In this document: positions 1 to 50,762 of the stretch, piece by piece
Numbering within the stretch: position 1 is the stretch's first letter
Layout: the number at the start of each line of letters is the position of its first letter
From: a virus
Reading direction: 5' to 3' (one strand)
Length of the DNA: 58,840 nt
Virus record (IMG/VR): IMGVR_UViG_3300050119_000051
Location: 1 to 58,840 of that record
The notes under the pieces: generated by a model
The model's input: only the letters and a program-made list of their open reading frames with translations
What the model was told of the DNA's origin: nothing
Databases searched by the model: none
Made by a program: the position numbers and the translations under genes

Positions 1-83
1 AGTCCGAGCAGCCCGAGCAGCGCGAGCAGTCCGAGCAGCGCGAGCAGCCCGAGCAGCGCGAGCAGCCCGAGCAGCGCGAGCAG
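1..83. repeat. 9-bp tandem repeat encoding Cys-Ser-x units
   Basis: A 9-bp unit (gagcagcgc with variants gagcagccc and gagcagtcc) repeats without interruption up to the left edge of the window. On the minus strand each unit encodes Cys-Ser-(Arg/Gly/Asp), so this is a coding repeat inside the partial gene at 1-220. The unit length is a multiple of three, so copy-number change would keep the frame. The array continues beyond the window. Confidence 0.85.
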
Positions 84-12680: not shown

Positions 12681-15056
12681 ATGGCCGGCCTAGCCCCCAA
12701 CACCTCCCTGCGCCTCGTGCCGTCCCCAGAGCCGGGCCTGCCGCCCCCTGCCGACGTCCAGGTGGAGATCGCGAATACCGATGACGCTCCGGTCATTGAC
12801 GACAAAAATAATATCGTCCGGATCGAGCACGGCGACGGTTCGGTTACCGTCTCGCTCGACGGCAAACCATTGGGCGAGCCGCGTCCCGAAAAGCCTTCCG
12901 AGTGGTTCGACAATCTCGCGGAGCGCATCGATGCTAGCGAGCTCTCGATGATCACCGAGGACCTGCTACGCGGCATCGCCGATGATCTGACCTCGCGCCA
13001 GGAGTGGATCGAGGATCGCGCGCTCGGCGTGAAGCTGCTGGGGCTCAAGATAGAATTGCCGAACGTCCAAGGCGCAAGCGACGGCGCGCCGGTTGAGGGC
13101 ATGAGCAAGGTCCGGCATCCGCTGTTGCTTGAGGCCGTTTTAAGATTTCAGGCGAACGCGCGATCGGAACTGCTGCCGACCGACGGCCCGGTCAAGATCA
13201 GGAACGACTCGACCTCGCCGACTGCAGTTAGTGATGCGGTTGCCGATGCGCTTGAAAAGGATCTGAATCACTACCTGACGGTGGTCGCTACCGAGTATTA
13301 CCCGGATACCGACCGCATGCTTTTTATGACTGGATTCGGCGGGACCGGCTTCAAAAAAGTCTACAAGTGCCCGCTGCGAAATCGTCCGATCTCAGAATCC
13401 GTCGATGCCGATGACCTGATCGTTAATCAATCGGCGACTGATTTGGCGAACGCCCAGCGCGTCACGCACCGCTCGATGATGAAGCCATCGACCGTCAAGC
13501 GCATGCAGATTCTGGGCGTGTATCGGGATATCACGCTCAGTGACGCCGTGGCACCGCAGTCCGACGCGCTGCAGGATGAGGAGCGCGCCCAGCAGGGCAT
13601 TGCTGTAGATACGATGCGGCGCCCTGAGGACCGCGAGCGGCAGATCTACGAGACCTGCTGCGAGATCAATATCAAGGGGTACGAACACAAGCACAAGGGC
13701 AAGGAATCCGGGCTGGCAGTGCCCTACGTTGTAGCGATCGATGTGTCCTCGCGCGAGTGCCTGTCGATCGTGCGCAATTTTGATCAGGACAACCAGCCGC
13801 TGCCGACGGCCAAAAAACGGTTCGTGAAGTACCCGTTCGTTCCTGGCATCGGGTTCTACGATATCGGGCTGCTGCACATCATGGGCAACACGACGAACGC
13901 GGTGACCGCGGCGTGGCGCGAGATGCTGGACTCAGGTATGTACGCTAACTTCCCTGGCTTTCTGATGGCCGACGGCGGCGGTCGGCAGAACACGAACATT
14001 TTCCGCGTGCCACCTGGGGGCGGCGCGCCGATCAAGACGAATGGTCAACCGATTCGCGAGGCTGTCATGCCGCTGCCGTACTCGACGCAGGGCATGCCGG
14101 CGCTGATGCAGTTGGTCGATAACATGGTGCAGATGGGACAACGTATCGGCGGCACGGCCGAGGTCCAGGTCGGCGAGGGTCGTGCGGACGTGCCGGTGGG
14201 CACGGTCATGGCGATGATCGATCAGGCCATCAAGGTCATGAACGCGGTTCACAAGCGCATGCACGCGGCCCAAGCTGAGGAATTCCAGCTGTTGAAGCAG
14301 CTGTTTCGCGAAAATCCGGACACGATCTACTGCAAGGGGTGCAAGCCGAAGCAGCCGATCGACAAGCAAAAATACATCGAGGCACTGAACAATTGCGATC
14401 TAGTGCCGCAGGCTGATCCGAATACATCCTCGAGCGCTCAGCGCATGATGAAAGTCATGGGATTGAAGCAACTGCAGCAGGGCAATCCGACGCTGTACGA
14501 TCCGATCAAGGTCGATGCTGTCGCATTGAGGGTGATGGGGTGGAGTAACCCAGAAGAATTTTGGGTACCGGCCGCCGCACGCGCGCAGCCGCCGCCGCAG
14601 CTCCTGCAGATGCAGCAGCAGATGGCGAACGAGAAAGCAGCTGCCGACGCCAAGCTCCAAGAGGCACAGGCGCGCACCACGGAAGCGAATGCGAGAGCGG
14701 CCGAAGCCCAAGCGAAAGTCGAGACGGGCCACTTCGCGCCTAAGCCTGAGGTCGGCGTGGCAGAGGGCGCGCAGCCGGAGGAGTCGGTGCTCGATATCGC
14801 CAAGGCCCAAGCCGCAGTGATCGACGCGCATACAAGGGAACGCGAAGCGGCGCTGAAGGCGCGCACCGCAGGGGTTGAAGATCAGAACCGCGATCAGGAT
14901 CGGCTGGCGAAGCAGCAGGATACAGCCATCGACCTGGCGAAAGCCGTGATCGGCGCCCCCACTGCCGGCGAGTCTGGTAAGCAGGTCGGCGTGTCTGGTG
15001 TTGGAGCTAAGACTTTGGAGATAATTAAGGACGTCGACAGGGGGATAGGAACGTGA
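12681..15056 (+). CDS. Portal protein
   Basis: 791 residues, podovirus-type portal. Family-like segments include VRHPLLLEAVLRFQANARSE and ELLPTDGPVK (about 150-180), MLFMTGFGGTGFKKVYKCP (about 215) and a long helical C-terminal part. From about 640 to 720 is a coiled-coil/barrel-like Ala-Glu-Lys-rich helix (KLQEAQARTTEANARAAEAQ). The dodecameric portal forms the DNA channel at one capsid vertex and docks the terminase. Position after terL and before scaffold is canonical. Confidence 0.88.
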   Translation: MAGLAPNTSLRLVPSPEPGLPPPADVQVEIANTDDAPVIDDKNNIVRIEHGDGSVTVSLDGKPLGEPRPEKPSEWFDNLAERIDASELSMITEDLLRGIADDLTSRQEWIEDRALGVKLLGLKIELPNVQGASDGAPVEGMSKVRHPLLLEAVLRFQANARSELLPTDGPVKIRNDSTSPTAVSDAVADALEKDLNHYLTVVATEYYPDTDRMLFMTGFGGTGFKKVYKCPLRNRPISESVDADDLIVNQSATDLANAQRVTHRSMMKPSTVKRMQILGVYRDITLSDAVAPQSDALQDEERAQQGIAVDTMRRPEDRERQIYETCCEINIKGYEHKHKGKESGLAVPYVVAIDVSSRECLSIVRNFDQDNQPLPTAKKRFVKYPFVPGIGFYDIGLLHIMGNTTNAVTAAWREMLDSGMYANFPGFLMADGGGRQNTNIFRVPPGGGAPIKTNGQPIREAVMPLPYSTQGMPALMQLVDNMVQMGQRIGGTAEVQVGEGRADVPVGTVMAMIDQAIKVMNAVHKRMHAAQAEEFQLLKQLFRENPDTIYCKGCKPKQPIDKQKYIEALNNCDLVPQADPNTSSSAQRMMKVMGLKQLQQGNPTLYDPIKVDAVALRVMGWSNPEEFWVPAAARAQPPPQLLQMQQQMANEKAAADAKLQEAQARTTEANARAAEAQAKVETGHFAPKPEVGVAEGAQPEESVLDIAKAQAAVIDAHTREREAALKARTAGVEDQNRDQDRLAKQQDTAIDLAKAVIGAPTAGESGKQVGVSGVGAKTLEIIKDVDRGIGT

Positions 15057-15361
15057 GGACACGAATTGTTCGGATGTTCAGTCAGTCCAAGGCCCGAGAA
15101 GTATACGTCGTTCAGCAATGGATGACCAAAGAAAAGATCACGCGCCTGAAAGAGATTCGTCGAGAGGACAACTTGTCGCCGCCCAATCCCAATGAATGTT
15201 GGGAATCGCTCGTCGAGTTTAATCTTGACGAGTACGACAAAGCGGCCGACCATGCGATGAATCTTAGTTGGGAGAAGAAAGGGCCAAAGGAAGTTGCCGT
15301 GTTCGAGAATGGGACACAGGTGCCGTCGCCATTCTCGGCTGCCGCAGATCCGTTGCCGTGA
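15053..15361 (+). CDS. Hypothetical protein after portal
   Basis: 102 residues from GTG 15053 (GTGA overlap with the portal stop); ATG 15074 is the alternative. Charged, with a helical N-terminal half (TKEKITRLKEIRREDN) and an acidic middle. Unrecognised head-module protein. Confidence 0.55.
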   Translation: MRTRIVRMFSQSKAREVYVVQQWMTKEKITRLKEIRREDNLSPPNPNECWESLVEFNLDEYDKAADHAMNLSWEKKGPKEVAVFENGTQVPSPFSAAADPLP

Positions 15362-15519
15362 GCCGATTGCATCGCTATCTTCTGCGGACGCAGCGCTGGC
15401 GTCAGCCGAAAGGAAACCGGTGGCCTCACGCAATAGTGTTTGCCTGCAGTTACACGGTCACAAGGAAGGAAGTTGCCGATGTTTTATATGAAATTGCGCC
15501 GGCGCTGCGTAAAGCGTAA
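15358..15519 (+). CDS. Small basic hypothetical protein
   Basis: 53 residues from GTG 15358, overlapping the previous stop by 4 nt. Rich in Arg and Trp near the N-terminus (SRLHRYLLRTQRWRQPKGN). No family recognised. Support is the coupling and its conserved-looking position in a tightly packed operon. Confidence 0.4.
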   Translation: MSRLHRYLLRTQRWRQPKGNRWPHAIVFACSYTVTRKEVADVLYEIAPALRKA

Positions 15520-15549
15520 ATTCGGCACCATGTCAACCGTGAGGCATCC

Positions 15550-20610: not shown

Positions 20611-21525
20611 ATGGCCATCAATTTAGCTGCGATCAAAGATCTCCTCCTGCCGGGTTTGCGAGGGATCACTGGCAAGTACGAGCAGATCCCGAGCCAGTAC
20701 GACAAAGTTTTCACGAAGTTCAATTCGAAGCTCGCTCTGGAGCGCACGGCCGAGATGCGCTACCTCGGACTCGCGCAGCTCAAGACCGAAGGCGGTCAGA
20801 CGCAGTTCGACAACAACGCCGGTGAGCGCTACGTTTACAATCAGGAGCACGTCGAGATCGCTCTCGGCTATGCGATCACCCGCAAGGCGATCGACGACAA
20901 CCTGTACAAGACCCAGTTTCACCCGTCAAATCTCGGCCTGATGGAGTCTTTCCGCCAGACTCAGGAGGTCTACGCGGCGAACGTACTCAACACCGCGACC
21001 ACGTACAACGCCAATGTCGGCGGCGACGGCGTTGCGCTGTGCGCGACCACGCATCCTGTCGACGGCCTGACGGTCGCCAACACCCCGACCACGCAGGTGG
21101 ATCTGAACGAGTCGACGCTGCTGAACGGAATGGTCGGAATCCGCACGAACTTCCGAGACCAAGCTGGCCTCAAGATGTTCGCGCGCGGTCGCAAGTTGAT
21201 CGTGCCAACGGCGTTAGAGCCGACCGCGATTCGCTTGACCAAGACCGAACTGCGGCCAGGAACTGCCGACAACGATGTCAACGCGATCCTGTCCACGGCG
21301 GGCGGTATCCCAGAAGGCTACCTGGTCATGGACTTCCTGACCTCGTCCTTCTCGTGGTACCTGCTGACGAACATCGCGGGACTGGCGTTCATGGACCGCA
21401 TTCCGTACGAGACGGATATGCAGGTGGACTTCGTGACCGACAATTTGCTTGTTAAAGGGTACTCTCGTTGGAGCTTTAATTACTTCAATTGGCGCGCATT
21501 GTACGGCTCATTCCCGACGTCGTAA
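20611..21525 (+). CDS. Major capsid protein (HK97 fold, Mu gpT-like)
   Basis: 304 residues. Features of Mu gpT-type capsid subunits: GKYEQIPSQYDKVFTKF near the N-terminus, the spine-helix region EIALGYAITRKAIDDNLY, KMFARGRKLIVPTALEPTA (P domain) and a C-terminal SRWSFNYFNWRALYGS. A strong AGGAG site precedes the ATG. Forms the icosahedral shell with scaffold and portal. No N-terminal delta domain, consistent with the separate scaffold at 17469-18428. Confidence 0.88.
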   Translation: MAINLAAIKDLLLPGLRGITGKYEQIPSQYDKVFTKFNSKLALERTAEMRYLGLAQLKTEGGQTQFDNNAGERYVYNQEHVEIALGYAITRKAIDDNLYKTQFHPSNLGLMESFRQTQEVYAANVLNTATTYNANVGGDGVALCATTHPVDGLTVANTPTTQVDLNESTLLNGMVGIRTNFRDQAGLKMFARGRKLIVPTALEPTAIRLTKTELRPGTADNDVNAILSTAGGIPEGYLVMDFLTSSFSWYLLTNIAGLAFMDRIPYETDMQVDFVTDNLLVKGYSRWSFNYFNWRALYGSFPTS

Positions 21526-22554: not shown

Positions 22555-23199
22555 ATGAGACGGATCATTTCAAGTGTAGGGCCACTCGCCGTAGCCGCAG
22601 CAAACAACATCGCGCTGTCTCAGACGCCCGCTGGCGCCGGCGCGCTAACGCTAAATGGATCGCTGGTCACTAGTGGTGTCGCAACCCTAGACAACCCGCG
22701 GCGCGTCCTGATCACGACCGCCGACACGACGCACCTATTCACGGTCACTGGCACCACGCCGACAGGCTCGGTAATCAGCGAGGTTGTGGGTCCCATCACG
22801 ACGTCGGCCTATACCGCGCAGGACTTCGCGACCATCACCTCTGTGACGATCAACGGCGCAGCGACGGCCGCTGTGACGGTGGGTACGAACGGGGTTGGCT
22901 CAACGCCTTGGGTGCGCACGGACGAGTGGGCGGATGCAGCTCTGTCGATCCAGTGCGATGTCGTCGGTACGGTGAACTACACCGTACAAGCGTCGAACGA
23001 TGATCCGAACGACCCGACCAATCCGGTACTGCCGAGCGCGATGACGTGGATCAGCACGAATGATCCAAACGGCGTTGCAGCGACTGTGGCGATTCTGACT
23101 AACTACCTGTTCGCTCCGCAGTACGTGCGCGCACTTTTGAATAGCGGCACAGGGTCTGTGTCGATGACCGTGACTCAGTACAACGTGGTGAATCGATGA
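22555..23199 (+). CDS. Beta-rich virion-associated protein
   Basis: 214 residues with no signal peptide (start MRRIISSVGPLAVAAANN is only weakly hydrophobic). Thr/Val/Ala-rich strands such as RRVLITTADTTHLFTVTGTT suggest an all-beta domain of the decoration or tail-attachment type. Its stop overlaps the next start by 4 nt. Confidence 0.5.
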   Translation: MRRIISSVGPLAVAAANNIALSQTPAGAGALTLNGSLVTSGVATLDNPRRVLITTADTTHLFTVTGTTPTGSVISEVVGPITTSAYTAQDFATITSVTINGAATAAVTVGTNGVGSTPWVRTDEWADAALSIQCDVVGTVNYTVQASNDDPNDPTNPVLPSAMTWISTNDPNGVAATVAILTNYLFAPQYVRALLNSGTGSVSMTVTQYNVVNR

Positions 23200-26054
23200 T
23201 GAAAAATATACTGATTTGGCTGGCGCTGCTGGCTCCAGGACTGGTGCTGGCGCAGCCCGCCAACACCTATGTTCCTGGCCCCTCTCCCTACGCGCCTTCT
23301 GGCACGCCGTCGAACGGCCAGTGCCTAGTCTGGAGCTCGACCGCAGGGCCGAACTCGTCAGGAGCCTGGATCAATGCCGCGTGCGGGGGCGGTAGCGGCA
23401 TCACGGCGCTGACTGGTGTGGTGACTGGAACTGGGCCTGGTAGCACGCCTACGTCGTTTGGGTCTGGCGCGACTGCGGCGCTCCCGGCCGGCGCTCTGCC
23501 TTCCGGCGTGACGACCACAGCCGGCGGCGTGCCGACAGGCAATGCCGACACGGCTACGCTTACTAACAAAACTCAAAGCTACGCGAACAACACGTTCATA
23601 GGCTTCGGCCAGATGATTCCCTGCACGGGGACATTCGCGACCGATACGGCGCTCCTGGCTGCTGCTACCGCGATCGGCGGCAACATCACGCTTACTGGCA
23701 ACTGCGTGGTCAACGCGACCACGGTTATCAATTCCAGCACCCTCCTTAACGGTAACGGTTTCAAGATCACAGCGGCTGCTGCTGCAAACTGGTCAGGCAG
23801 TGTTATCAGAGCTGCATTCAATGCAGCGGACGGCGCCACTAACGTCACGATTGAAAATACAACGTGGGACTGGACCGGCGCTCCGGCCAGCACTCACATC
23901 CTGAATTTCGACGACCCTCCGGCGACGTTCTCCAAGATATCAATCTTAAACAATACTGCGCTGGTGGCTCCTGGGGACTTCGTTGCTCTGGTGAATGTGA
24001 CGGATGCCACGATCACCGGCAACAAGGTCGGCGACGCCACTCATGGATGCGCGGGTGCCTGTTTTGATCTCTGGGGCATTGATACCAACGTCGTGGAGAC
24101 CGGCAATTCCGCCTCAGTGGCCTCTGAGGGCATCGGCTATATCTATACCGGCTTCTTCGATTCCTCCCATCCGAGCAATGCGACCAATATCAATATCTCG
24201 CATAACTTCGCCTATCTGATCGACTCCTCAGGCGGGGTGCCGATCGGCATTTATATTCAAGGCTACGAGACGTCGTGCAGCTTCGGTACGACCAACGATG
24301 CCTACAACACGGTCGCGGACAATCAGATTGTGCTCACGGCCGGTGTCAACGGTCGCCCGATCTGGGTCAACTCCTGCGCCTATTACACCGATGTTCACGA
24401 CAACATCATCACCGGCGATAACGTTACTGCGCAGACTGCTCCGGCTATCGAAGTCAACGGATTATCCGGCGCCTCGATAGGCATTCAGATCCACGACAAC
24501 ATAGGCTATGGCTTCCTTGCCCCAACGACGGGATCGGATGCCGGGGATTTCGTCAATAAGGGCTCCAACGGCTCTATCATCAATAACACGTGCTTTAGCT
24601 GCGGCGCGCTGCTGGTCGGAACTACAGGGGTGCAGTCGAGCACCCGTATCTACGGCAATGACAATGGCACCGGTATTGACACCTTTGTTACCCCGGCTAC
24701 CTTCAGCGCCGCCGCGATACTCAACGGCCCGACTTCTGGTACTGGACTCGACGCCTACGCGCTAGCCTATCTGGCAGGCGGCCATCCGGTAGCGGCTTCT
24801 ACTCTGTCATCGACCAGCGCCCCTACCGTGAATGGGGTCGCTGCCCCGGTTAATCTGTTTAGCTGGGGCATTCCTGTCGGCATTCCGCCGTCCGGCTTCT
24901 TCGCGAACAACGGCGTCTATATCGTAGGCCAAGCCCCCGCTTCTAGCGCCACCGTGACATTTGGCGCGACCAGCGGCAGCACGTCGATGACATTCAGCGC
25001 TGGCACGCCGTTCGCCAACGGTGCAGCCGACATCGGGCGCGTCTTGACGGTTCTCGATACCGTCTCGGTCACGGCAACGAGCGCATCGCCTGCCGTGTTC
25101 ACCGGTGACACGCTGCCCAACGGTACGATCATCACTAACATCGGTGGCACGCCGCCCACCGGGTTCTCTGCAGGGACGTTCTACTACGTCGTCAACACGT
25201 CTGGAAACACGTTCCAACTATCCGCGACGCCAGGTGGCACGGCCATCAATTCGTCGAGCACCGGAACATCGGTCACGGTAGCCTCTTACAAGTTCGGTAC
25301 TTGCACGGCAGCGGTCAGTACAACCGTCTGCACGGCGACGATCAGCGGCGGCACGCTATCAACTGCAGGCGCCTGGGCCAACAATGTCATTTGGCTCTCC
25401 GGCAGTCCGACCACGAACATCAGCGCATTCTCTGTGCCGCTGCCTGCAGCGGTCTTGGCTCATGTTTATTTTAATCTTCCGGTCAATGTCATTTCGGCGG
25501 CCACCGCAGCGGGCATCTATAACGCCACCTGCGCGACCTCGACGTTCTGCATTGTCACCAATAACGCGCTAGCCAGCGGCTTGCCTACGATACCGGGAAG
25601 CCCAACGATCTTTGCAACCACGGGAACGGGCGCATTTTCTCAAAGCACTTCAGCGCTTAACATTCTCACCCTGTCTATCCCCGCTAATAGCTTGGGAGCG
25701 AATGGGTCTCTTGTTTCCGATATCTTTGCAAATCGTGATAGCAATGCAAACACCGTTGCATTACAGACTTTCTACGGAGGGGTGCAAACCGCTCAATTCT
25801 CGGTGGTAAGCGTAGTGTGGTATGGGACGCACCGGACTATAAGGAATTTGGGAGCGACAAATTCTCAAGTGCTGTACTGCGCGACGTGCGTGGGTGCGAT
25901 GACTGACGCTACTACGAATAACAATACGAGTAGTACTCTCACGGTTGACAGCACGCAAGCTCAGAACTTCGTCGTAAAGGGCGCATCGACTACGGCAGCA
26001 ACCGACTGGATTTTCACCCTTGGCGGCACGATTCAAGCGAACTACGCGCCATGA
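23196..26054 (+). CDS. Signal-peptide-bearing beta-helix fibre/spike-like protein
   Basis: 952 residues. The N-terminus is a textbook Sec signal peptide (KNILIWLALLAPGLVLA, cut before Gln). A tail-fibre-like region follows (GITALTGVVTGTGPGS; TATLTNKTQSYANNTF). From about 130 to 500 are parallel-beta-helix repeats of the pectate-lyase type (NVTIENTTWDW; NINISHNFAYLI; YTDVHDNIITGDN). The C-terminal half is all-beta, Ser/Thr-rich. It may be a receptor-binding spike or a secreted glycan-binding/degrading protein. An export signal on a gene inside the virion block is unusual. Confidence 0.75.
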   Translation: MMKNILIWLALLAPGLVLAQPANTYVPGPSPYAPSGTPSNGQCLVWSSTAGPNSSGAWINAACGGGSGITALTGVVTGTGPGSTPTSFGSGATAALPAGALPSGVTTTAGGVPTGNADTATLTNKTQSYANNTFIGFGQMIPCTGTFATDTALLAAATAIGGNITLTGNCVVNATTVINSSTLLNGNGFKITAAAAANWSGSVIRAAFNAADGATNVTIENTTWDWTGAPASTHILNFDDPPATFSKISILNNTALVAPGDFVALVNVTDATITGNKVGDATHGCAGACFDLWGIDTNVVETGNSASVASEGIGYIYTGFFDSSHPSNATNINISHNFAYLIDSSGGVPIGIYIQGYETSCSFGTTNDAYNTVADNQIVLTAGVNGRPIWVNSCAYYTDVHDNIITGDNVTAQTAPAIEVNGLSGASIGIQIHDNIGYGFLAPTTGSDAGDFVNKGSNGSIINNTCFSCGALLVGTTGVQSSTRIYGNDNGTGIDTFVTPATFSAAAILNGPTSGTGLDAYALAYLAGGHPVAASTLSSTSAPTVNGVAAPVNLFSWGIPVGIPPSGFFANNGVYIVGQAPASSATVTFGATSGSTSMTFSAGTPFANGAADIGRVLTVLDTVSVTATSASPAVFTGDTLPNGTIITNIGGTPPTGFSAGTFYYVVNTSGNTFQLSATPGGTAINSSSTGTSVTVASYKFGTCTAAVSTTVCTATISGGTLSTAGAWANNVIWLSGSPTTNISAFSVPLPAAVLAHVYFNLPVNVISAATAAGIYNATCATSTFCIVTNNALASGLPTIPGSPTIFATTGTGAFSQSTSALNILTLSIPANSLGANGSLVSDIFANRDSNANTVALQTFYGGVQTAQFSVVSVVWYGTHRTIRNLGATNSQVLYCATCVGAMTDATTNNNTSSTLTVDSTQAQNFVVKGASTTAATDWIFTLGGTIQANYAP

Positions 26055-26103
26055 TATGCACTGGATGAGGAAGCGAAGCATGCAATTACGAGAGGTCTTG
26101 TTT

Positions 26104-27153
26104 ATGAAACGAGTATTGCTGCTCACGCTCCTATTGCCGCTGACCTGCTTGGCGCAGAGTCCTGGCGTCGGGTTGACGTCGATAACCGCCGCTAGCAATG
26201 TCGTCGGGAACGAACTGATATTCGCTTGGCAACAAGGGAGTGGTGGCAGTGGGGTTAATGCCTGTATCAGCGGGTGGTGCCCGATCACATTCACGCCCGC
26301 TCTGCTGAACACCTATTTCTCTGGTGGTGGTGGTACTCCGGCGAATCCCACCGCAAAGGTCGGAACGTCCGCCGTCAACGGCTCTGCTACCACGTACATG
26401 CGTTCGGATGCCGCGCCGCCTATTGACCTGACGTTCTCGCCGACGTGGACCGGCACGCATACATTTAACGGCACGATCGCAGGAACTGCGCTCTCGGCCT
26501 ACCTAGCTGCTCCTCCTGCGATAGGCGGCACAACGCCAGCGGCTGGCGCCTTCTCAAGTCTGAAGGATACCGGCATTAGCGGTTCGACGCAGTGTTTGCA
26601 TGCGAGTACCGCAGGTATCATATCTGGAACTGGCTCGGATTGCGGCAGCGGCGGTTCTAGCGCATTCAGCACGCTCACCAGTGGCACGAATACGTCGGCT
26701 GCAATGATAGTCGGAAGCGGCGCATCTTTGGCGGCTACCGGATCCGGAAGCATCGCCGCCACGAGTCTCAGCGGCATGACCGCCCCAAGTACGAGTGGGG
26801 TATTAGGTTATCTGGGGCTGCCGGAACCACGCGGAGTGCTTACCGGAGCGGTGACTATCGCGTTGACCGATAACAGCAACGTGCTGCATTTCAATTGCAC
26901 GTCGGCCTGCACGCAAAACATCCCTGCAAATTCAGGAGCTGGCAGCGTCGCGTTCCCGGTCGGTGCGGTGCTAATATTCGACAATGACTGCACCGCGACC
27001 ACAGCTCTCACTGTGACCCTCAGCAGCGATACGATGTACTTAAGTCCACTGCCATCGGTCACCGGTACGCGAAGCGTATCGATCTGCGGGGAGATGTTCG
27101 CGCGCAAAGAAACCTCTACGACTTGGAAAGTGACTGGTACTGGAGTCACATGA
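26104..27153 (+). CDS. Signal-peptide-bearing tail-fibre-like protein
   Basis: 349 residues. Starts MKRVLLLTLLLPLTCLA with a likely cut before Gln; GAGAGG lies upstream of ATG 26104. The body has phage fibre phrases: TYMRSDAAPPIDLTFSP, TWTGTHTFNG, IGGTTPAAGAFSSL, GSTQCLHASTAGIISGTG. The C-terminal domain (about 250-349) is a compact beta domain ending in TTWKVTGTG. The combination of fibre repeats and a Sec signal is odd. ATG 26056 is a possible upstream start but would bury the signal. Stop overlaps the next start. Confidence 0.75.
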   Translation: MKRVLLLTLLLPLTCLAQSPGVGLTSITAASNVVGNELIFAWQQGSGGSGVNACISGWCPITFTPALLNTYFSGGGGTPANPTAKVGTSAVNGSATTYMRSDAAPPIDLTFSPTWTGTHTFNGTIAGTALSAYLAAPPAIGGTTPAAGAFSSLKDTGISGSTQCLHASTAGIISGTGSDCGSGGSSAFSTLTSGTNTSAAMIVGSGASLAATGSGSIAATSLSGMTAPSTSGVLGYLGLPEPRGVLTGAVTIALTDNSNVLHFNCTSACTQNIPANSGAGSVAFPVGAVLIFDNDCTATTALTVTLSSDTMYLSPLPSVTGTRSVSICGEMFARKETSTTWKVTGTGVT

Positions 27154-29024
27154 TGCGAGGTGTGCTCGCAGCGCTATTGCTGGCAGTCATGGCACTGCCT
27201 GCTCACGCGCAGGCGCTGGCCTCGGCTAGATCGAGTTTTCTGTGGATCACGCCGATGCTCAATGATGCATTCGGGCGCACCAATGGATCTCTGATCTCGC
27301 CCTGGGCCGTGGTCACAGGATTGCCAGCAAACCTGGCCATTTCCAGCACTACGGTGATCACCAGCCATTTGACGGCCGACACGGCGTATTACAACTCTGG
27401 AGCGACGTGGCCTGGCGATCATTATTCCTGCGCCACGGTAGTCAATGCGAGTTCTGATGCCCCCAATCACGGCTACGGAGTCTCGGTGCGCGTCAGCTCG
27501 AGCGCGGAGAGTTTCGATCGAGCCGTGTTCGGCGCGGCCGGTTGGCAGACTCAGGAAGTCGTGGCGGGCGCAGCCACGGATCTTAATAGCTCTACCACCG
27601 TGCAATGGGTAGCAGGGGATCAGGGCTGCTTGTTTGCAGTCGGTTCGACGCTGACTCTATACAAGATTTCAGGCGGCTTATGGACGCAAGTGGATGTTGA
27701 GTCCAGTACGCTCACCGGAGGCTCGCCGGGACTTGCCTATTCCAGTACGAACGTTGCTGGAGGGGCGATCAACAACTGGTATGCCGGCGTGGTCAATACC
27801 AGAGGCCCGCTCGGGGGCGCAGGCGGTACAGCTATAAAGTGGCACCCTGGCCATTACACGCAGTCTGACTTCTACATGACCACGTCGCCGTCATCGGACG
27901 GCACGTTTGATGATATCGACCGTATGGCCGCGGTAGTGGATGGGAGTGGCAATCCTCGATTCAAAGGTTATATGATCCAATTCCATTGGTCTGATATCGA
28001 ACCCACAACGCAGGGTTCGTACAGTGCAGCGATGGTCACGGCGATTAACGCCGTGCGTACCCGATTGCAGACCAACTACACCTATAACGGCGTCGTTAAT
28101 CCGTTTCGCTTGATGATTAGGCTCAGGGTCGAGGCAGGCAACCATTTGCCGGCTTACATTACCAGCGGTATCAGCGGGCTTGGTTCGGATGCCGTTGCGT
28201 GTACGGGCTCTGGGCCAGGCAGTATGGCCCCAGCTTTCTGGCGCGCCCCAGTCATGAGCGCATATATCAACATGCTCAATTACCTCGGCTCGCTGTACGA
28301 CTCTGACCTACACGTAGAGGCCATCGCAGCGCTGGAAGAAGCCTCCATCGCTTACACGTCGCCCCCTGGGGACTACTCGGGAGCGGCCTTCTACGCTCAA
28401 TTTCAGAACATGGTGAATGGTCTATCGAGTTGGCCCACTACGCTCAAGACCCCCAATCTGAACTTCGGTCCCACGGGCACTAATCAGGCTTGGGTCAACA
28501 CGGCCACTGAATTCCTCGCTCCTAAGCTTGGTTGGGGCATTGGTGGACCGGATGTGCTGACTGCGACCGGCGGTTACGGGGAGACGTGGGGAGAACTGGC
28601 ATTCTATGGAGGCAGCGGTTCGGATAGCATCAACAGGCAGGGACATACCAGTGAAATCATCGGCATCGAAGACGACGTGTACCTTTGGACCGCACAAACT
28701 TCAGCCGGCGATGAATCCTATGGCTATAGCACCCTGCACCCCACGCACATGGTATGGATGATCTTTCCAGAGTCTGAATACAGCGGGGTTGCTGGTAATT
28801 CCTCACAGTGGTGGGAGACCGGAACGGTGCCGGCATTGCAAGCGGTGAATTTTCGTCTAGCGGCTAGTGCGCTGCCTTGCCCGAGCGCCTATAACAGCGT
28901 CGGCTGCAACACGATGGGCTTTGGTTGGTCGTGGATAGTGATGTTGCCGATGCTGGCGCGGCGACGCCGAGGCTTATATGAAGCCGCCAACGATGACGAT
29001 TTCGAGCAGCGCGTCAGAGCGTAG
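27150..29024 (+). CDS. Secreted two-domain protein, probable glycoside hydrolase
   Basis: 624 residues. Signal peptide RGVLAALLLAVMALPAHA cut before Gln. Residues about 30-230 form a lectin/jelly-roll-like domain (LNDAFGRTNGSLISPWAVV). Residues about 235-590 look like a TIM-barrel glycosidase: KGYMIQFHWSDIEPTTQGSY, VNPFRLMIRLRVEAGNH, VEAIAALEEASIAY (candidate acid/base Glu) and IIGIEDDVYLWTAQTS (candidate second acid). The C-terminus has a short hydrophobic patch and RRRR (MLPMLARRRRGLY). It would degrade host capsule or matrix polysaccharide. GH family not assignable by eye. Confidence 0.65.
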   Translation: MMRGVLAALLLAVMALPAHAQALASARSSFLWITPMLNDAFGRTNGSLISPWAVVTGLPANLAISSTTVITSHLTADTAYYNSGATWPGDHYSCATVVNASSDAPNHGYGVSVRVSSSAESFDRAVFGAAGWQTQEVVAGAATDLNSSTTVQWVAGDQGCLFAVGSTLTLYKISGGLWTQVDVESSTLTGGSPGLAYSSTNVAGGAINNWYAGVVNTRGPLGGAGGTAIKWHPGHYTQSDFYMTTSPSSDGTFDDIDRMAAVVDGSGNPRFKGYMIQFHWSDIEPTTQGSYSAAMVTAINAVRTRLQTNYTYNGVVNPFRLMIRLRVEAGNHLPAYITSGISGLGSDAVACTGSGPGSMAPAFWRAPVMSAYINMLNYLGSLYDSDLHVEAIAALEEASIAYTSPPGDYSGAAFYAQFQNMVNGLSSWPTTLKTPNLNFGPTGTNQAWVNTATEFLAPKLGWGIGGPDVLTATGGYGETWGELAFYGGSGSDSINRQGHTSEIIGIEDDVYLWTAQTSAGDESYGYSTLHPTHMVWMIFPESEYSGVAGNSSQWWETGTVPALQAVNFRLAASALPCPSAYNSVGCNTMGFGWSWIVMLPMLARRRRGLYEAANDDDFEQRVRA

Positions 29025-29030
29025 CCAGTC

Positions 29031-29807
29031 ATGACCGGCACAGTCATCGTCGGAGGCGGCAGTAATAATACCGTCGAGGTAGCGGCGACCGGTACGCAGG
29101 GACCGGGCGGACAAAATCCGCTGAATACTTCTGGCACGTACAACTTTGCGCCGAGCATGGGCGAGGCGGTTTTGTTCGCATACGGCTCATGCGGCGTTCG
29201 CAGGACGGCTTTAACTCAACAGCATTTCGAAGATGCACGTTTTGCGACCAATATGCTGATGGGGCGCTGGAGCGCGGACGGCGTCAATCTATGGGCGGTG
29301 GACTTACAAAAGATTCCGCTGGTACAGGGCCAGTCAACGTACCAAGTTCCGTACAACACAATCGTGATGCTGGACACTTACTACACAATTATTAACGGTG
29401 GAGAAGAAATAGATCGGATTATGACTCCGGTAAGTCGTACGGAGTACGCCAACTACCCGCGTAAGCAGCAACAGGGAAGCCCTAGTATATTCTGGATGGA
29501 CAGATTGTTATCGCCAACGGTCACTATCTGGCCAGTGCCAAATGGTCAGCAGGCGTGCTTGAAGTATTACAGGCTGCGCCAGATTCAAGATTCAAACCTA
29601 CAGAATGGGCAGAATGTAGAAATACCGCCGTACTTTCTTGAGAGCTATGTATACGGTCTTGCAACACGGCTTGCAGGCATTTGGGCACCAGAGCGAGCCG
29701 TTGGATTGAAGGCCATGGCCGACGAAGCATGGGGAATTGCGACGCGACAAAACACAGAGACGGCTAACCTGTATATTTCACCGATGATCAGCGGGTATTT
29801 TCGGTAA
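29031..29807 (+). CDS. P22 gp4-like head-completion/DNA stabilisation protein
   Basis: 258 residues. The compact domain from about 120 matches phage tail-accessory/gp4-like proteins: MTPVSRTEYANYPRKQQQG, SPSIFWMDRLLSPTVTIWP, then a helical end with PPYFLESYVYGLATRLA. These proteins plug the portal after packaging and provide the first ring of a short tail. Placement before the other connector genes fits. Confidence 0.72.
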   Translation: MTGTVIVGGGSNNTVEVAATGTQGPGGQNPLNTSGTYNFAPSMGEAVLFAYGSCGVRRTALTQQHFEDARFATNMLMGRWSADGVNLWAVDLQKIPLVQGQSTYQVPYNTIVMLDTYYTIINGGEEIDRIMTPVSRTEYANYPRKQQQGSPSIFWMDRLLSPTVTIWPVPNGQQACLKYYRLRQIQDSNLQNGQNVEIPPYFLESYVYGLATRLAGIWAPERAVGLKAMADEAWGIATRQNTETANLYISPMISGYFR

Positions 29808-30538
29808 TGGCCTATGCCAGCAGAAGCGGAAGGGCGCGGACTTCTACAAAGAAGCCAAGTGCCTTCTATGTCTGCGATCGTTGCGGAATTTGGGGAAATC
29901 GCGTGGACGGCCAGTGGCAAATGGAATGGCGCGGCACCAGCCTTCAAAATCTGTGGATCCTAGTTTGTCGCCGATGTTTAGACGTGCCTCAGGAGCAACT
30001 TCGCGCGATACAACTCCCAGCTGATCCTGTTCCAATTTGGCAGCCTCGCATCGAAAACTTCGCCGATGCCGAAACTGACTACCGCTCAACACTTCCGGGA
30101 ACCGTTGATCCGATCACCGGCATTCCAATCCCGTCAACGACACTGCGCGTCACGGAGGATTGCCAGAATCGCATCACGCAGCCGATCGGCATACCTGACG
30201 GACTTGAACAAAACGCCGTCATGCCGTACAACGGCGGCGTGCAAAAGGCGTTCGGTGTGCCTCTCTCACTGTTGTCAGTCATCGCCAACGGCACTGCAAC
30301 AATCGCCGTGACGTGCTCCAAGCCGCATGGCCTGCAGACCGATGGACAGATATCGGCTGAGGGACTGACGGCCGCCAACGGCTTCTACAGCGTGATCGTG
30401 GTCAGCGCGACGGCGTTTACATATATGATGGCGTCGAATGTAGCCGCGGCTTCGCTGTTGACGCCGACGACCAGGATTGTGACCGCGCTAGTCGGGTTGC
30501 CGTACGGTTCACCGGCCATTCCCACTGGAGTGATTTGA
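29807..30538 (+). CDS. Connector-module protein with N-terminal zinc ribbon
   Basis: 243 residues, start overlapping the previous stop. Two Cys pairs in the N-terminal part (FYVCDRCGIWG and VCRRCLD, about residues 21-66) look like a zinc ribbon. The C-terminal half is beta-rich with KPHGLQTDGQISAEGL, a pattern also common in phage tail proteins. Function unknown, likely structural. Confidence 0.6.
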   Translation: MAYASRSGRARTSTKKPSAFYVCDRCGIWGNRVDGQWQMEWRGTSLQNLWILVCRRCLDVPQEQLRAIQLPADPVPIWQPRIENFADAETDYRSTLPGTVDPITGIPIPSTTLRVTEDCQNRITQPIGIPDGLEQNAVMPYNGGVQKAFGVPLSLLSVIANGTATIAVTCSKPHGLQTDGQISAEGLTAANGFYSVIVVSATAFTYMMASNVAAASLLTPTTRIVTALVGLPYGSPAIPTGVI

Positions 30539-31038
30539 TGGCCACGACGACCATATTGCAACTCCCTCAGATTGTTGGCGGCGCAACGGGCCTCGAGCAA
30601 TTAGAAGTCGCGCAGCCGACGACTCTGCCTAATGGGCAGCCAGGATGGGTGTCTATACGACTATCGTCCGCGCAGATCGCGGCTCTTGCGTCACAGATCG
30701 CGGCTACGGGGCCGACGGGCGTTATATACGATTCTCCAGCCGCCGGAGCGCATAACGACTACACCGTAAATAACCAAATGGGTCCGACCGTCGGCTTCAT
30801 TGAACTTACGCCCACTGCGAACTGCAACATCACTGGGTTGAAAGCTGGACTCGACGGGCAACTTGTCGTAATCACAAATCTTGCCGCCGGCTTCAGCGCC
30901 ACTCTGAACGCGCTCAACGCGGGCTCGCAGGCTGCGAATCAGCTCAGAATGGTTCAGGACTTCGCCTTGATACAGAACGATTCGAAGTCGTTCAAGTATT
31001 CGATCACCATTGGAAAATGGATAGCGATAGAGTTCTGA
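30538..31038 (+). CDS. Fibre/cement-like beta protein
   Basis: 166 residues from ATG 30538 (TTG 30535 is possible). Residues 1-55 look like a fibre-type N-terminus (TTTILQLPQIVGGATGLEQ); the C-terminal domain reads GFIELTPTANCNITGLKAGL and ends in KYSITIGKWIAIEF. Such domains are typical of phage fibre or head-fibre proteins. Two nt before the next gene. Confidence 0.5.
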   Translation: MATTTILQLPQIVGGATGLEQLEVAQPTTLPNGQPGWVSIRLSSAQIAALASQIAATGPTGVIYDSPAAGAHNDYTVNNQMGPTVGFIELTPTANCNITGLKAGLDGQLVVITNLAAGFSATLNALNAGSQAANQLRMVQDFALIQNDSKSFKYSITIGKWIAIEF

Positions 31039-31039
31039 T

Positions 31040-31828
31040 GTGACCGCGCCAGCTACCAACCCGCTGTCCTACAACGCCTACGTCCAACAGCTTGGCGTGA
31101 TGGCGGTTGCGCTGACTCAGGAGACTGCCGGCGTTTACAGCTTCGTCGATGAGCCGCTGCAGACGGCGTTACTGCAGGCGCTAGGATACGCCGAGTTGAG
31201 GATTCAGCGCGACATAGATTTCCTGAATGCCCGCGCGTCGAATACTTATGCGCTTACGGCCGGCAGTAACCTGTTGTCGATTCCGATCAACGATTTTCTC
31301 ATCGTCGAAACACTTGAGATCACGCAGAACAATGGCACTCAAGTCGTCAACAGCATGCCGCTTACGCCCGTGTCTCGCGAACTTATCCAGAACTGTTATT
31401 CAGGACTGGCGCAGGCATCGCAGCCCCGATTTTTTGCCATGGCGGGAGACAATTTTGGTGACGGCGCGAATTTGAACATCAACGTGCTGCTTGGGCCAAC
31501 GCCTAACTTCGCGTATCAGGTACGCGTCAATGGCGTGATTCGCTTGCCGTCGCTGGCGAAGTTTGCTGTATCAGGAGTTGCTGACACCTCGTACACGTAT
31601 ATCTCGGAATTCCTGCCGGACATGCTGATGATGGCTAGCCTGATTTATATCTCGGCGTTCCAGCGTAACTTCGGTGTAGCGAGTTCAGATCCTGACTCTG
31701 GGATGACATTCGAAAAACAATATCAAGCGCTGAGGTTGGGGGCCATTTCGGAAGAGAATAGAAAGAAGTTTCAGGGAAGCGCTTGGTCTTCTTATTCCAC
31801 GCCAGTTGCGGCAACCCCGACAAGATAG
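31040..31828 (+). CDS. Tail adaptor/connector protein
   Basis: 262 residues from GTG 31040. Helical N-terminal part (YNAYVQQLGVMAVALTQE; ALGYAELRIQRDIDFLNAR) and a beta middle with SIPINDFLIVETLEITQN, then YISEFLPDMLMMASLIYISA. This fold pattern resembles phage adaptor (gp4/gp11-type) proteins attached to the portal. Second such protein in the block. Confidence 0.6.
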   Translation: MTAPATNPLSYNAYVQQLGVMAVALTQETAGVYSFVDEPLQTALLQALGYAELRIQRDIDFLNARASNTYALTAGSNLLSIPINDFLIVETLEITQNNGTQVVNSMPLTPVSRELIQNCYSGLAQASQPRFFAMAGDNFGDGANLNINVLLGPTPNFAYQVRVNGVIRLPSLAKFAVSGVADTSYTYISEFLPDMLMMASLIYISAFQRNFGVASSDPDSGMTFEKQYQALRLGAISEENRKKFQGSAWSSYSTPVAATPTR

Positions 31829-32542: not shown

Positions 32543-34579
32543 ATGCCTCACGCTATGTTGCGCCTAGCGGGCGGGGTCAATACGACTGAGACGGCAGCCC
32601 TCAATGAAAACTCTGGGATTTCGTCCTCTAACCTGATCCGATATTTTTACGATGTAAACGGCCCGGCGCTCGTTGGCAAACTCGGCGGCTGGAGCAAATT
32701 TTTTCCTTCCGCAATGGCCGCCATCGTGCGCGCGTTGTGGGCATGGGAGGATATCAACGATAACGCAAATCTGGCATTAGGCACGCAGGTATTTCCATCT
32801 GGCGCACGCTCTCAGTTAGCCGTCATCACAGCCGGTGCGCTCACAGATATCACGCCTGTTCAGGCGGTAAGCGCGATTCCACCGGTTGTGGTTGCAACTG
32901 CTATTGGAAGCCCGCTGATTGCGGTGGTAGACACCACCACTATCGGTATCACCAATACCTGCAGCGTGTACATCGCGACGCAAATCGCCGTTGGCGGACT
33001 GGTGCTGTTTGGTCTTTATCCCTGCGACGAATTGGGCTCCATTTATTCCAACAGTTACACGCTCTACGCCCGAGATATCCTAGGAAATCTGAGACTAGCG
33101 ACAACCACGGCCGCGGCCACTCTCCCAACATTTAGTACGCAGCCGCAGTCCAATGCCGTCGCCGTCACATTGACTGCGCACGGTTATGCGCCTGGTACTA
33201 CCTTCCCTATCCTTTTTGCCACGCTGGTGGGGGGCATAACGCTACAGGGAAACTATGTTATCCAGACCGTTGTCGACGCCAATACATTCACGATCCAATC
33301 CACATCTGCGGCGACTTCTGCTGCTACCGCAACATTAAACGGCGGCATTGCCGTTTTTGTGTACAACGGCTTGGGCGCGACGCCGCCATCCGCGCTACCA
33401 ATCGAGTCCGATGACTGGACACTGGATAACTTCGGACAGGATTTGATCGCGTGCCCCACGACTTCCCCAGGGTTGCCGGGAGGCATTTCCTATCAGCCGA
33501 TCTATCTCTGGTCGCCGACCAGTCAGCCGAATGCCGCAGTGATTCCGCAGGCGCCTGCGGTCAACGACGGGATATTCGTCGCAATGCCGCAGCGTCAGAT
33601 CATCGCGTGGGGATCGACTGAAACCGGCATCCAGGATCCGCTACTCATCAACTGGTGCGATGTCAATAATCCCAATCAATGGATTGCGCTCCCGACCAAT
33701 CAGGCAGGCTCATTTCGGATCCCAAAAGGCTCTCGCATCGTGGGCTGCGTTCAAGGGCCTCAGCAGGCCCTTGTCTGGACGAACATCGACGTGTGGTCAA
33801 TGCAGTTCATCGGCACTCCGTACGTCTATTCGTTCAATGAAATTGGTACCGGCTGCGGTCTGATTGCGCGCAAAGCCGCTGCGTCCCTGAATGGCATTTA
33901 TTACTGGATGGGACCATCACAGTTTTATAGCTTGGGCGGAGAGGGAGTGTTGCCCATACCATGCCCGGTGTGGGATGTTGTCTTTCAGAATCTTAATCAG
34001 GGCGCATTGTCGAAAATTCGCGTTGCGGTCAATTCCAGATTTGGCGAAATCCAGTGGTTCTATCCGTCAGCCAATGGCGGCGGCGAAGTCGATTCATACG
34101 TCAAGTACAATGTCTACATGAACGTATGGGATTATGGATCACTCGGACGAACCGCCTGGGTAGATCAATCGGTACTCGGGCCGCCAATCGGCGCGGATCC
34201 TGGGTCGTTATTGCTGTACCAGCATGAGACCTCTAACGATGCAGACGGCGTGGCGATGTTACCTTTCCTTCAGACTGGATATTTTGCGTTGAGTGAAGGG
34301 GATTTTCAGACGTTTGTGGATCTCGTTTGGCCAGACATGCGCTGGGGACAATGGTCGGAGGCGCAGAATGCGACGGTGCAAATCTCGTTCATTGTCGTCA
34401 ACTATCCCGGTGATACGCCGGTCACTTACGGCCCGTATTCAGTGACGCAGGCGACCAAATATTTCAACACGCGGCTGCGCGGGAGGCTCGTCGCGGTCAG
34501 GATATCGAGCAGTGATCTGGGCACTTGGTGGCGTATCGGTGCCCTGCGGTATCGTTATGCGCCGGACGGACGGTTCTAA
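32543..34579 (+). CDS. P22 gp10-like tail hub / DNA stabilisation protein
   Basis: 678 residues, beta-propeller-like and beta-rich. The N-terminus (MLRLAGGVNTTETAALNENS; SSSNLIRYFYDVNGPAL; KLGGWSKFF) is the pattern of P22 gp10-type packaged-DNA stabilisation proteins. Further segments include PQRQIIAWGSTETG, LINWCDVNNPNQW and KAAASLNGIYYWMGPSQF. Forms the hub that closes the portal channel and receives the spikes. ATG 32555 is an alternative start. Confidence 0.72.
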   Translation: MPHAMLRLAGGVNTTETAALNENSGISSSNLIRYFYDVNGPALVGKLGGWSKFFPSAMAAIVRALWAWEDINDNANLALGTQVFPSGARSQLAVITAGALTDITPVQAVSAIPPVVVATAIGSPLIAVVDTTTIGITNTCSVYIATQIAVGGLVLFGLYPCDELGSIYSNSYTLYARDILGNLRLATTTAAATLPTFSTQPQSNAVAVTLTAHGYAPGTTFPILFATLVGGITLQGNYVIQTVVDANTFTIQSTSAATSAATATLNGGIAVFVYNGLGATPPSALPIESDDWTLDNFGQDLIACPTTSPGLPGGISYQPIYLWSPTSQPNAAVIPQAPAVNDGIFVAMPQRQIIAWGSTETGIQDPLLINWCDVNNPNQWIALPTNQAGSFRIPKGSRIVGCVQGPQQALVWTNIDVWSMQFIGTPYVYSFNEIGTGCGLIARKAAASLNGIYYWMGPSQFYSLGGEGVLPIPCPVWDVVFQNLNQGALSKIRVAVNSRFGEIQWFYPSANGGGEVDSYVKYNVYMNVWDYGSLGRTAWVDQSVLGPPIGADPGSLLLYQHETSNDADGVAMLPFLQTGYFALSEGDFQTFVDLVWPDMRWGQWSEAQNATVQISFIVVNYPGDTPVTYGPYSVTQATKYFNTRLRGRLVAVRISSSDLGTWWRIGALRYRYAPDGRF

Positions 34580-48528: not shown

Positions 48529-48578
48529 GCAGCAACTTTGACGGCAATCCGTTTTGTCCAGTTATTAAGGTGATTTCC

Positions 48579-49457
48579 ATGAAAAACTTTCTCGCCGTTC
48601 TTGCCCTGCTCTGTCCCGGCATCGTCTTTGCCGCTGCGCCAGCCACTCTCGCCGCCCCATCAACCGTGACTGGCTCACTCAGCGGTACAACCTTCACGCT
48701 TAAGTGGAGTGAGGTTACCGCCGCATCTGGCTACAATATCCGTTGCGCTGCGAGCGATACTGCGTTAACCGCACTCGATGCGAGCGACCCGTCCATGACC
48801 GCGACGCCGCCGACCGTCAACGGCACGCCGCTCAATCCCAACACCGTCACCAGCTATCCCGTGCCGAACATCACTGCGGGCATGTCGTGCGAAGTCGGCG
48901 CTTGGAGCTGGACGGCGACCGCTTCCGCCGTGAGTGTGCCGAGCGCGCATGTGATCGCCACGGCGGCGGTCTCCAGCAGCTCCAGCTCTGGCGGTAGCAG
49001 CTCCGGTGGCGGTAGCTCCTCGTCGTCTAGTAGCGGGGGCTCATCTTCTAGTAGCTCAAGCTCTGGCGGCGGATCGTCCTCTGGCGGCAGTTCCAGTTCG
49101 TCAGGCGGATCGGTAACGCTGCCTAACGGTACGGCTGTAATCACCTGGACCGCACCGACCACGAACACCGACGGCAGCGCTATCCCGGCGAGCGAGGTAC
49201 TGACCTACAACGTCTACGAGGGAACGGTATCGCCGGTGTCGCTGACCACGCCGCTCAACGCCACGCCGCTCAGTGCGCTTACCTGCTCGGTCACGCTCGC
49301 GCCCGGCACCTACTACTTCGCCGTCGTGGCTCTCAACGGCAGCGCGGGGAGTGGGCCGGCAACCAGTCCGCAGGTAATCGTGCCCGTAGTTACCGTCATT
49401 GAAACGCCGAGCGCACCGGGCAAGATTAGCGTGACCTACACCGCCACGACGCCGTGA
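48579..49457 (+). CDS. Secreted FN3-like protein with poly-Ser/Gly linker
   Basis: 292 residues. Signal peptide MKNFLAVLALLCPGIVFA (ATG 48579, AAGGTG upstream). Residues 25-130 form an FN3/Ig-like domain (FTLKWSEVTAASGYNIRC), 132-178 are an almost pure Ser/Gly linker, and 180-292 a second FN3-like domain (AVITWTAPTTNTDGSAIP; YNVYEGTVSPVSLTT; PGTYYFAVVALNG). Poly-Ser linkers join modules of secreted polysaccharide-binding and -degrading enzymes in Cellvibrio-like bacteria. Likely exported binding protein; no catalytic domain seen. Stop overlaps the next gene. Confidence 0.72.
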   Translation: MKNFLAVLALLCPGIVFAAAPATLAAPSTVTGSLSGTTFTLKWSEVTAASGYNIRCAASDTALTALDASDPSMTATPPTVNGTPLNPNTVTSYPVPNITAGMSCEVGAWSWTATASAVSVPSAHVIATAAVSSSSSSGGSSSGGGSSSSSSSGGSSSSSSSSGGGSSSGGSSSSSGGSVTLPNGTAVITWTAPTTNTDGSAIPASEVLTYNVYEGTVSPVSLTTPLNATPLSALTCSVTLAPGTYYFAVVALNGSAGSGPATSPQVIVPVVTVIETPSAPGKISVTYTATTP

Positions 49458-49723
49458 CTGAGCAGGAAGCGATAAACTCTGCGCGCCGAACGTATTGGTG
49501 TGCGCTGCTGCGAGAAACGCGCGGCAACGTCGCCTTGGCCGCGTTCATCGCCGGCAGGAACCGGACCGGAGCGCACCAGATACTGCGCAAATTAGGCATC
49601 GAACGCGGTCAGTTCCGGCTCAAGAAGGAGAAGCCGAGACGGACCCGATGGCTAGGCCCTATGCGATGTCCCGCGCGAGATAGAGCGGCGCATCAGGGAA
49701 TTTTCACTGCGGCAGTTCGATAA
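49454..49723 (+). CDS. Fis-type HTH protein
   Basis: 89 residues from GTG 49454. Residues 12-50 follow the Fis/NtrC C-terminal HTH pattern: RETRGNVALAAFIAGRNRTG then AHQILRKLGI. A basic tail follows (KKEKPRRTRW). Last gene of the rightward series; its 3' end overlaps the end of the convergent lipoprotein gene by 20 nt. May regulate late genes. Confidence 0.6.
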   Translation: MTEQEAINSARRTYWCALLRETRGNVALAAFIAGRNRTGAHQILRKLGIERGQFRLKKEKPRRTRWLGPMRCPARDRAAHQGIFTAAVR

Positions 49724-50762
49724 TGGCAAATGTCTCAGTAGATCCAGATGCCTGCAAGTTGATAGTCATTCGTAGGGCGGTGGGACTGACGGTGTAATCC
49801 AAGTACGCCAGTCCCGTGCCCGTCGCCCCTGGGTATTCGCACCCCGCGCTGTAGATTATGGCGATAGAGTACGCATTGTGATTTGGGTCAATGAGCGAGA
49901 CTTGCCCGCTCAGAGCACAAGTGCCATCGGCGCTGTGCTCAGAAATGATACCGTTTCCGTCAATGGTGAAAGGCGCCCGCTCGCCGCCAATGATAACCGG
50001 GCCATCCATGCCCGGCAGTTCTCCCCAAGCGCCTGCGATTTGCGCTAGGCCGGAGGAATAGTTGTAGAGTCCGTTATAAGTCCAACTGTCCGTACCAGCG
50101 CCGTTAACGGCAAAGGTAAGGCTTACCCCTTGAGTCACAGTCCCGACATCTGGCGTTGAACTGATCGTGGCTCCGCATATGTCGGTGGTGATACAGCTAC
50201 CGCTCTGTATGGGGGCGAAGTATTCGTAGCCACTGATCTGATTGCCAGAGACGGTAAATGTGCCGGTGGAGATAGCTCCAGCATCGCCGGCCGCCGAATG
50301 AGGCTCGCCGTCGTAGAAGAACTGGCCGGTATCAATCGTGAGCATCCATAAGGTGCCGATGGCATCGGGCGCGCTTGGATCACTGATGGGCCTCGCCCAG
50401 ATACCGCCGAGGATTTGATTAGTAGGTGATCCGCCTGAGGATGAAGAACTACTAGAGGACGACGAACTGCTTGCGCCCGAACTTGAGGAACTGCTGCTGG
50501 AGGAAGATTGACCGCCAGAGCTGGAACTAGACGAAGTAGGAAGCGGTACTACCGGAGCTGGAGCAACAATAGGAACTGACGAAGGAGCAACAGGAGCAAC
50601 AGGAGCAGGAGCGGGCGCCACAACAGGAACTGGCGCAGCAACGGGAGCAGCAACAGAATCTGGTGCCGCTAGTGGAGTTATGGAATCAGTCGATGGAGAT
50701 CCAGAGCCTCCGCAACCAGCGATAAGGATCACTATAAACAGACTTGCTGCGATAAATTTCAT
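49704..50762 (-). CDS. Lipoprotein with Pro-Ala-Val repeats and poly-Ser linker
   Basis: 352 residues. N-terminus KFIAASLFIVILIAGC is a lipoprotein signal with lipobox IAGC (Cys17). Residues 31-76 are a Pro/Ala/Val repeat, 77-112 nearly pure Ser, then a beta-rich C-terminal domain (ILGGIWARPISDPSAPDAIG; GQFFYDGEPHSAA) with paired Cys. After processing it would be anchored in the outer membrane with a display stalk. Could be a superinfection-exclusion or surface-remodelling lysogenic conversion factor (inference). Start overlaps the stop of the upstream gene (ATGA). Confidence 0.72.
   Translation of the reverse strand: MKFIAASLFIVILIAGCGGSGSPSTDSITPLAAPDSVAAPVAAPVPVVAPAPAPVAPVAPSSVPIVAPAPVVPLPTSSSSSSGGQSSSSSSSSSSGASSSSSSSSSSSSGGSPTNQILGGIWARPISDPSAPDAIGTLWMLTIDTGQFFYDGEPHSAAGDAGAISTGTFTVSGNQISGYEYFAPIQSGSCITTDICGATISSTPDVGTVTQGVSLTFAVNGAGTDSWTYNGLYNYSSGLAQIAGAWGELPGMDGPVIIGGERAPFTIDGNGIISEHSADGTCALSGQVSLIDPNHNAYSIAIIYSAGCEYPGATGTGLAYLDYTVSPTALRMTINLQASGSTETFAIIELPQ

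Follow-up and report, generated by a model that had tools for sequence, protein, structure and literature searches.

Sec signal peptides in a phage virion operon of SU10 type: candidate exported fibres and a probable glycosidase

Assembly of tailed phages is, according to the textbook, a cytoplasmic process. What, then, are export signals doing in a virion operon? The question arises from a 58.8-kb virus record in IMG/VR (the window, i.e. the whole stretch of DNA analysed here), in which three adjacent genes of an SU10-type virion operon, P1, P2 and P3, begin with apparent Sec signal peptides.

Signal peptides and gene starts

A sequence-only reading had reported textbook Sec signals, predicted to be cut before Gln, on three neighbouring virion genes, and all three N-termini are present (Table 1). 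The flanks are also as described there, with the major head protein on one side and SU10 adaptors on the other. P1, P2 and P3 are co-oriented and most of them overlap their neighbours by a few bases. Portal, both adaptors and nozzle of the SU10-type module were detected by profile in the window.

Table 1. Features of the window, with predicted signals and profile matches
Feature	Position	Strand	Remarks
SU10-like portal protein	12681..15056	+	no signal; PF23899 SU10_portal 1.4e-8; anchors the virion operon
Major head protein	20611..21525	+	no signal peptide; phrog_371 3e-10
P1, predicted exported fibre/spike-like protein, 952 aa	23196..26054	+	16 Cys (even) in mature part
Predicted Sec signal peptide of P1	23196..23252	+	MMKNILIWLALLAPGLVLA, then Q; score 4.94
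P2, predicted exported fibre-like protein, 349 aa	26104..27153	+	8 mature Cys
Predicted Sec signal peptide of P2	26104..26154	+	MKRVLLLTLLLPLTCLA, then Q; score about 4.9
P3, predicted exported, probable glycosidase, 624 aa	27150..29024	+	charged C-terminal tail ARRRRGLYEAANDDDFEQRVRA
Predicted Sec signal peptide of P3	27150..27209	+	MMRGVLAALLLAVMALPAHA, then Q; score about 5.4
SU10-type adaptor 1	29031..29807	+	no signal; PF24175 2.2e-9
Small protein with LPxxxxLTGxE-type N-terminal domain	30535..31038	+	signal-less
SU10-type adaptor 2	31040..31828	+	no signal; PF24175 5.6e-11
Tail nozzle	32543..34579	+	no signal; phrog_3287 3e-63; PDB nozzle 8zkk/8zkm 2e-8
Internal-virion-type protein, 1615 aa	starts 36684
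Predicted exported protein with poly-Ser linker	48570..49457	+	score 5.09
Protein with lipoprotein signal and poly-Ser linker	49704..50762	-	MKFIAASLFIVILIAGC; from scorer and sequence
Predicted exported poly-Ser protein	54195..56279	-	repeat C-terminal half; 8 mature Cys; score 5.71

Signals were scored with a rule-based script of our own (charged n-region, hydrophobic core, AxA site) rather than with SignalP, calibrated on eight known E. coli signals, which scored 3.5-5.7, and on 626 background phage ORFs. P1-P3 score 4.9-5.4, inside the range of the E. coli controls, and show n-, h- and c-regions with an AxA-type cleavage site. Their hydrophobic cores are short (about 12-15 residues), a proline precedes the clean AxA-type site and the +1 residue is consistently Gln. 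A threshold of 4.2 was passed by 18 of the 626 other phage ORFs (2.9%), so that three signals in a row would be expected by chance at about 2e-5 per triple. This background rate and the recurrence of signals in independent samples (see below) rule out a chance origin.

The gene positions proposed earlier needed revision in two places: the longest-ORF starts of P2 (26020, TTG) and P3 (27123, TTG) are unlikely, and the likely starts are 26104, preceded by AGAGG, and 27150, with GGAG 5 nt upstream, both motifs resembling ribosome-binding sites. The start of P1 overlaps the stop of the upstream gene as ATGA. On these grounds mis-called starts were rejected as the source of the signals. Judged from sequence, the three signals are genuine and under selection, and export of P1-P3 appears very probable.

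At least three more genes of the window, absent from the sequence-only reading, carry predicted export signals, all combined with poly-Ser linkers (Table 1). The repeat C-terminal half of the product of 54195..56279 is probably parallel beta-helix-like. Long poly-Ser/Gly linkers are in the style of secreted polysaccharide-degrading enzymes of some gammaproteobacteria. Positions 1-220 (minus strand) encode the N-terminal portion of a short protein, truncated at the contig end, that contains tandem CSGCSRC-type repeats.

Fibre features, cysteines and relatives

The fibre phrases noticed earlier in two of the three proteins are real (TALTGVVTGTGPGS in P1, GGTTPAAGAFSSL in P2). P1, which had no PHROG or Pfam match, has a repetitive, presumably beta-helix-like middle, and in its C-terminal region it shows kinship with a fibre-like protein encoded by MW202691. 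For P2, matches were to phage proteins that include, at a weak level, Gordonia minor tail proteins; of its relatives in IMG/VR some carry signals and some do not. IMG/VR searches found no homologues of P1 and P3. Fibre-type repeat phrases and fibre homology occur in proteins that, unlike cytoplasmic Caudoviricetes tail fibres, bear an export signal.

The suggestion that all three might be fibre-like lectins or depolymerases does not extend to P3, which is not fibre-like. P3 itself matched neither Pfam, NCBIfam or PDB entries nor a glycoside hydrolase family profile, and its structure prediction was unusable (pLDDT 35). It is weakly similar to exported gene 2954 of the relative L004 (E 0.004), and in L009 the slot of P3, immediately upstream of the same adaptor, is taken by a GH5 cellulase (PF00150 1.7e-8; ELYNEP motif). 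This weak similarity and the positional link suggest that P3 is probably a secreted glycosidase. Further carbohydrate domains occur in relatives: L009 has a CBM5/12, L004 a domain of chitobiase type. A charged C-terminal tail is common to P3 (window 28958-29024) and an L004 gene (5190-5267), with the sequences LYEAANDDDFEQRV and LLADNDDYFHQRL; the L004 gene is an exported one just ahead of the same adaptor, and the tail could serve in docking or sorting.

Tail fibres normally lack export signals, as had been stated. Scanning IMG/VR with the fibre phrase GGTTPxxG[AT]F, an approach that picks up fibres whatever their N-terminus, gave 72 complete genes, 68 of them signal-less and four signal-bearing (L020, L053, L073 and L074). 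Signal-bearing tail fibres are a recurrent minority. When relatives of the studied phage were gathered with the nozzle as bait, most near ones proved to carry runs of signal-bearing fibre-like genes: L002, L003, L004, L006, L009 and L012 have one to five each, placed variably within the corresponding stretch, and in G008 (L007/L011) a classical fibre is followed by four consecutive ones. P2 relatives elsewhere (L234, L239, L240, L245) likewise lie in runs. By inspection, L245 has contractile-tail baseplate-type genes upstream, so the trait is seemingly not confined to short tails. Phage isolates yielded the exported-fibre domain solely in relatives without a signal, such as DSL-LC05. A fibre-like gene of the exported kind is present in MW202444, which is uncultured, and no match came from scanning 398 genomes of a single phylum for the pattern. 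Tat-like twin-arginine signals were seen on probable phage spike or exported proteins of L074 (975-2012, minus strand; SRRKLIVG) and of L160 in G001 (14152-16233, minus strand; TRRQMLARTG). A small Cys-rich protein encoded at 43912-44370 of the window matches phrog_1084 and 'L-shaped tail fiber protein assembly' (phrog_3304, 3e-8), and genes resembling it sit ahead of exported fibres in L004 and L012.

The mature chains of 17 exported proteins of the lineage contain 1.59% Cys, about ten times the content of signal-less fibres (0.20% in homologues, 0.17% in 73 random fibres; p=1e-7 in a fibre-only test). Signal-less fibres are the right comparison group; exported proteins set against all other genes gave p=0.09, a comparison that is uninformative because cytoplasmic enzymes are Cys-rich. 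Even numbers of mature Cys were found, by automatic calling, in 24 of 30 exported proteins. A held-out sample fetched afterwards gave 17/20 exported proteins versus 23/55 signal-less ORFs, and 87 of 214 further signal-less ORFs had even counts. Pooled, the figures are 41/50 versus 110/269, kinship between sequences being ignored. For the set, the counts agree statistically with oxidised, paired cysteines; they are even in P1 and P2 (Table 1) and odd in P3 (5). This suggests that the exported mature chains are disulfide-bonded, as far as Cys counts can predict it.

Exported and signal-less fibres are also linked by their N-termini. An ISALPAxxxLTGxE domain opens many signal-less fibres and, in exported ones, follows directly after the predicted cut, as in MADTKISALPA of signal-less DSL-LC05 versus AAFA|DTKISALPA of exported L222. 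A Cys pair within this domain is present in 6/8 exported versus 0/26 signal-less copies (2/4 versus 0/23 in the blind sample alone, p=0.017). The LPxxxxLTGxE-type domain of the small signal-less protein of the window also heads signal-bearing fibres of relatives. Moreover, the same operon slot is occupied by signal-less fibres in L148 and L154 and by exported ones in L003 and L006, and the signal-less fibre of L150 is homologous at its C-terminus to the exported fibre of L002 (E 4e-9). No classical signal-less fibre was found in the studied genome or in G002, and the sole classical-fibre match of G001 lies inside an exported fibre. G008 and G009 keep a classical fibre alongside exported genes, and exported genes are therefore not always a replacement for it.

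Where the exported proteins may act

In the L073 lineage, which is separate from that of the studied phage, the nozzle itself (phrog_3287, 3e-22) bears a signal, which is present in all 13 genomes with readable starts and has survived 33-54% nucleotide change; in simulations of equally large neutral change it persists in 1-11% of trials. Decoration-like (weak PF09956), fibre and lipoprotein genes of this lineage are signal-bearing as well, head protein and adaptor are not. The link between the two nozzle groups rests on the shared phrog_3287, their A2-A3 profile comparison being weak, and the structure prediction for the decoration-like protein was unusable (pLDDT 41). In L073 and L133-L146 an O-antigen-ligase-like membrane protein (PF04932) adjoins the adaptor.

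We consider it an evenly balanced proposition that P1-P3 are exported by Sec and oxidatively folded in the periplasm, the fibres most likely joining virions outside the cytoplasm. For the joining step as such, the chances seem even or slightly below. P1-P3 would be expressed late and together, exported by the host Sec machinery, cut by signal peptidase before Gln and, given their cysteines, folded with disulfide bonds in the periplasm. DNA-filled heads with capsid, portal, adaptor and, here, also nozzle would be made in the cytoplasm, while the external parts would be kept in the periplasm until lysis mixes the two compartments and lets them dock. Alternatively, the external parts might be released alongside the particles and open surface polysaccharide; the probable glycosidase P3, once released, would open extracellular polysaccharide. 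Generalising, we tentatively propose that virion completion takes place outside the cytoplasm in some tailed phages: head, portal and adaptor would be built inside, and fibres would leave through Sec, acquire disulfide bonds in the periplasm and be attached as the envelope opens. A similarly tentative extension is that nozzle and decoration-like protein of the L073 lineage take the same route.

A role as virion parts is favoured because slot and N-terminal domain are kept, the exported L002 fibre shares C-terminal homology with a signal-less one and a classical fibre is absent here. Against it count the presence of both kinds in G008 and G009, the signal-less nozzle of the studied phage and the odd Cys number of P3. 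The main competing explanation, a strong one although we rate it as less likely than not, is that P1-P3 are exported and never enter the virion. As lectins and enzymes degrading polysaccharides, either secreted or bound to the surface, they would remove capsule or matrix, hide receptors as a protection against superinfection or debris, or act as shared goods; ligand-binding domains in common would account for the fibre look. The probable glycosidase in the same run, the carbohydrate-related domains in L009 and L004, the three exported poly-Ser proteins outside the virion block and the coexistence with a classical fibre in G008 and G009 fit with secretion, and phage lambda provides a precedent: its Lom protein, whose gene lies among the tail genes, bears a signal and resides in the outer membrane (PMC12309495). 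Secretion does not explain the nozzle signals of the L073 lineage, and it sits poorly with exported fibres that retain domain and slot of signal-less ones and with a studied genome in which no other fibre candidate was found. Among the options first considered, the exported nozzles and the signals grafted onto standard fibre N-termini make us lean towards assembly that uses the envelope.

Uncleaved anchors displaying fibres on the infected cell, also among those options, are the least likely of them and improbable altogether. The N-termini are hydrophobic, and phage endolysins include examples of uncleaved signals of SAR type. This is opposed by the short cores, the proline before AxA-type sites, the consistent +1 Gln, the disulfide-like mature chains and the ISALPAxxxLTGxE domain beginning right after the predicted cut. 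It is similarly improbable that the N-termini are unused for export, whether as cytoplasmic hydrophobic peptides serving virion assembly or as mis-called starts. Signal prediction falls short of proof and tailed-phage assembly is otherwise cytoplasmic, but both the Cys enrichment and the even Cys counts go with the signal, the nozzle signal outlasts extensive nucleotide change and ribosome-binding-site-like motifs precede P2 and P3. The least probable explanation is that P1-P3 are morons, cargo of lysogenic conversion that a prophage expresses and that alters the host surface: a serine recombinase is encoded in the window and an integrase-like C-terminus in a sister contig, whereas P1-P3 lie gapless within the late virion operon, overlapping their neighbours.

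If virions are completed outside, the compartment of tail completion becomes a testable variable, phages gain disulfide-stabilised receptor-binding proteins, and such exported genes are overlooked or wrongly labelled by fibre predictors and in virion reconstructions of environmental phages. If the proteins are secreted instead, phages encode extracellular lectins and glycosidases that are co-expressed with virions.

Comparison with known systems

By profile matches, the operon shares portal, two adaptors and nozzle with the SU10-type virion module, from which it differs by the run of predicted exported fibre and enzyme genes between capsid and adaptor. With Caudoviricetes tail fibres of the GGTTPxxGxF and LPxxxxLTGxE types, the exported fibres have repeat phrases, N-terminal domain and operon slot in common; the sampled Caudoviricetes fibres mostly lack signals (68/72) and contain almost no Cys, whereas the exported fibres have both.

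Virion proteins with Sec signals that are assembled outside the cytoplasm are familiar from filamentous phages, in the coat proteins pIII and pVIII. These phages are unrelated, contain single-stranded DNA and are extruded through the membrane, with no tailed virion. In a full-text search with few subscription journals and preprints, the only signal-bearing proteins of tailed phages to turn up were lysis proteins and lambda Lom; neither fibres nor nozzles exported by Sec were described. Lambda Lom is an outer-membrane barrel and, unlike P1-P3, neither fibre-like nor a glycosidase. Signal-bearing lysis proteins are represented by T4 RI (PMC8385771) and by an endolysin with a Sec signal (PMC8951688). 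Here, tailed phages make use of host Sec and signal peptidase as proposed for P1-P3, for the benefit of lysis regulators or enzymes and not, as in P1-P3, of candidate virion parts.
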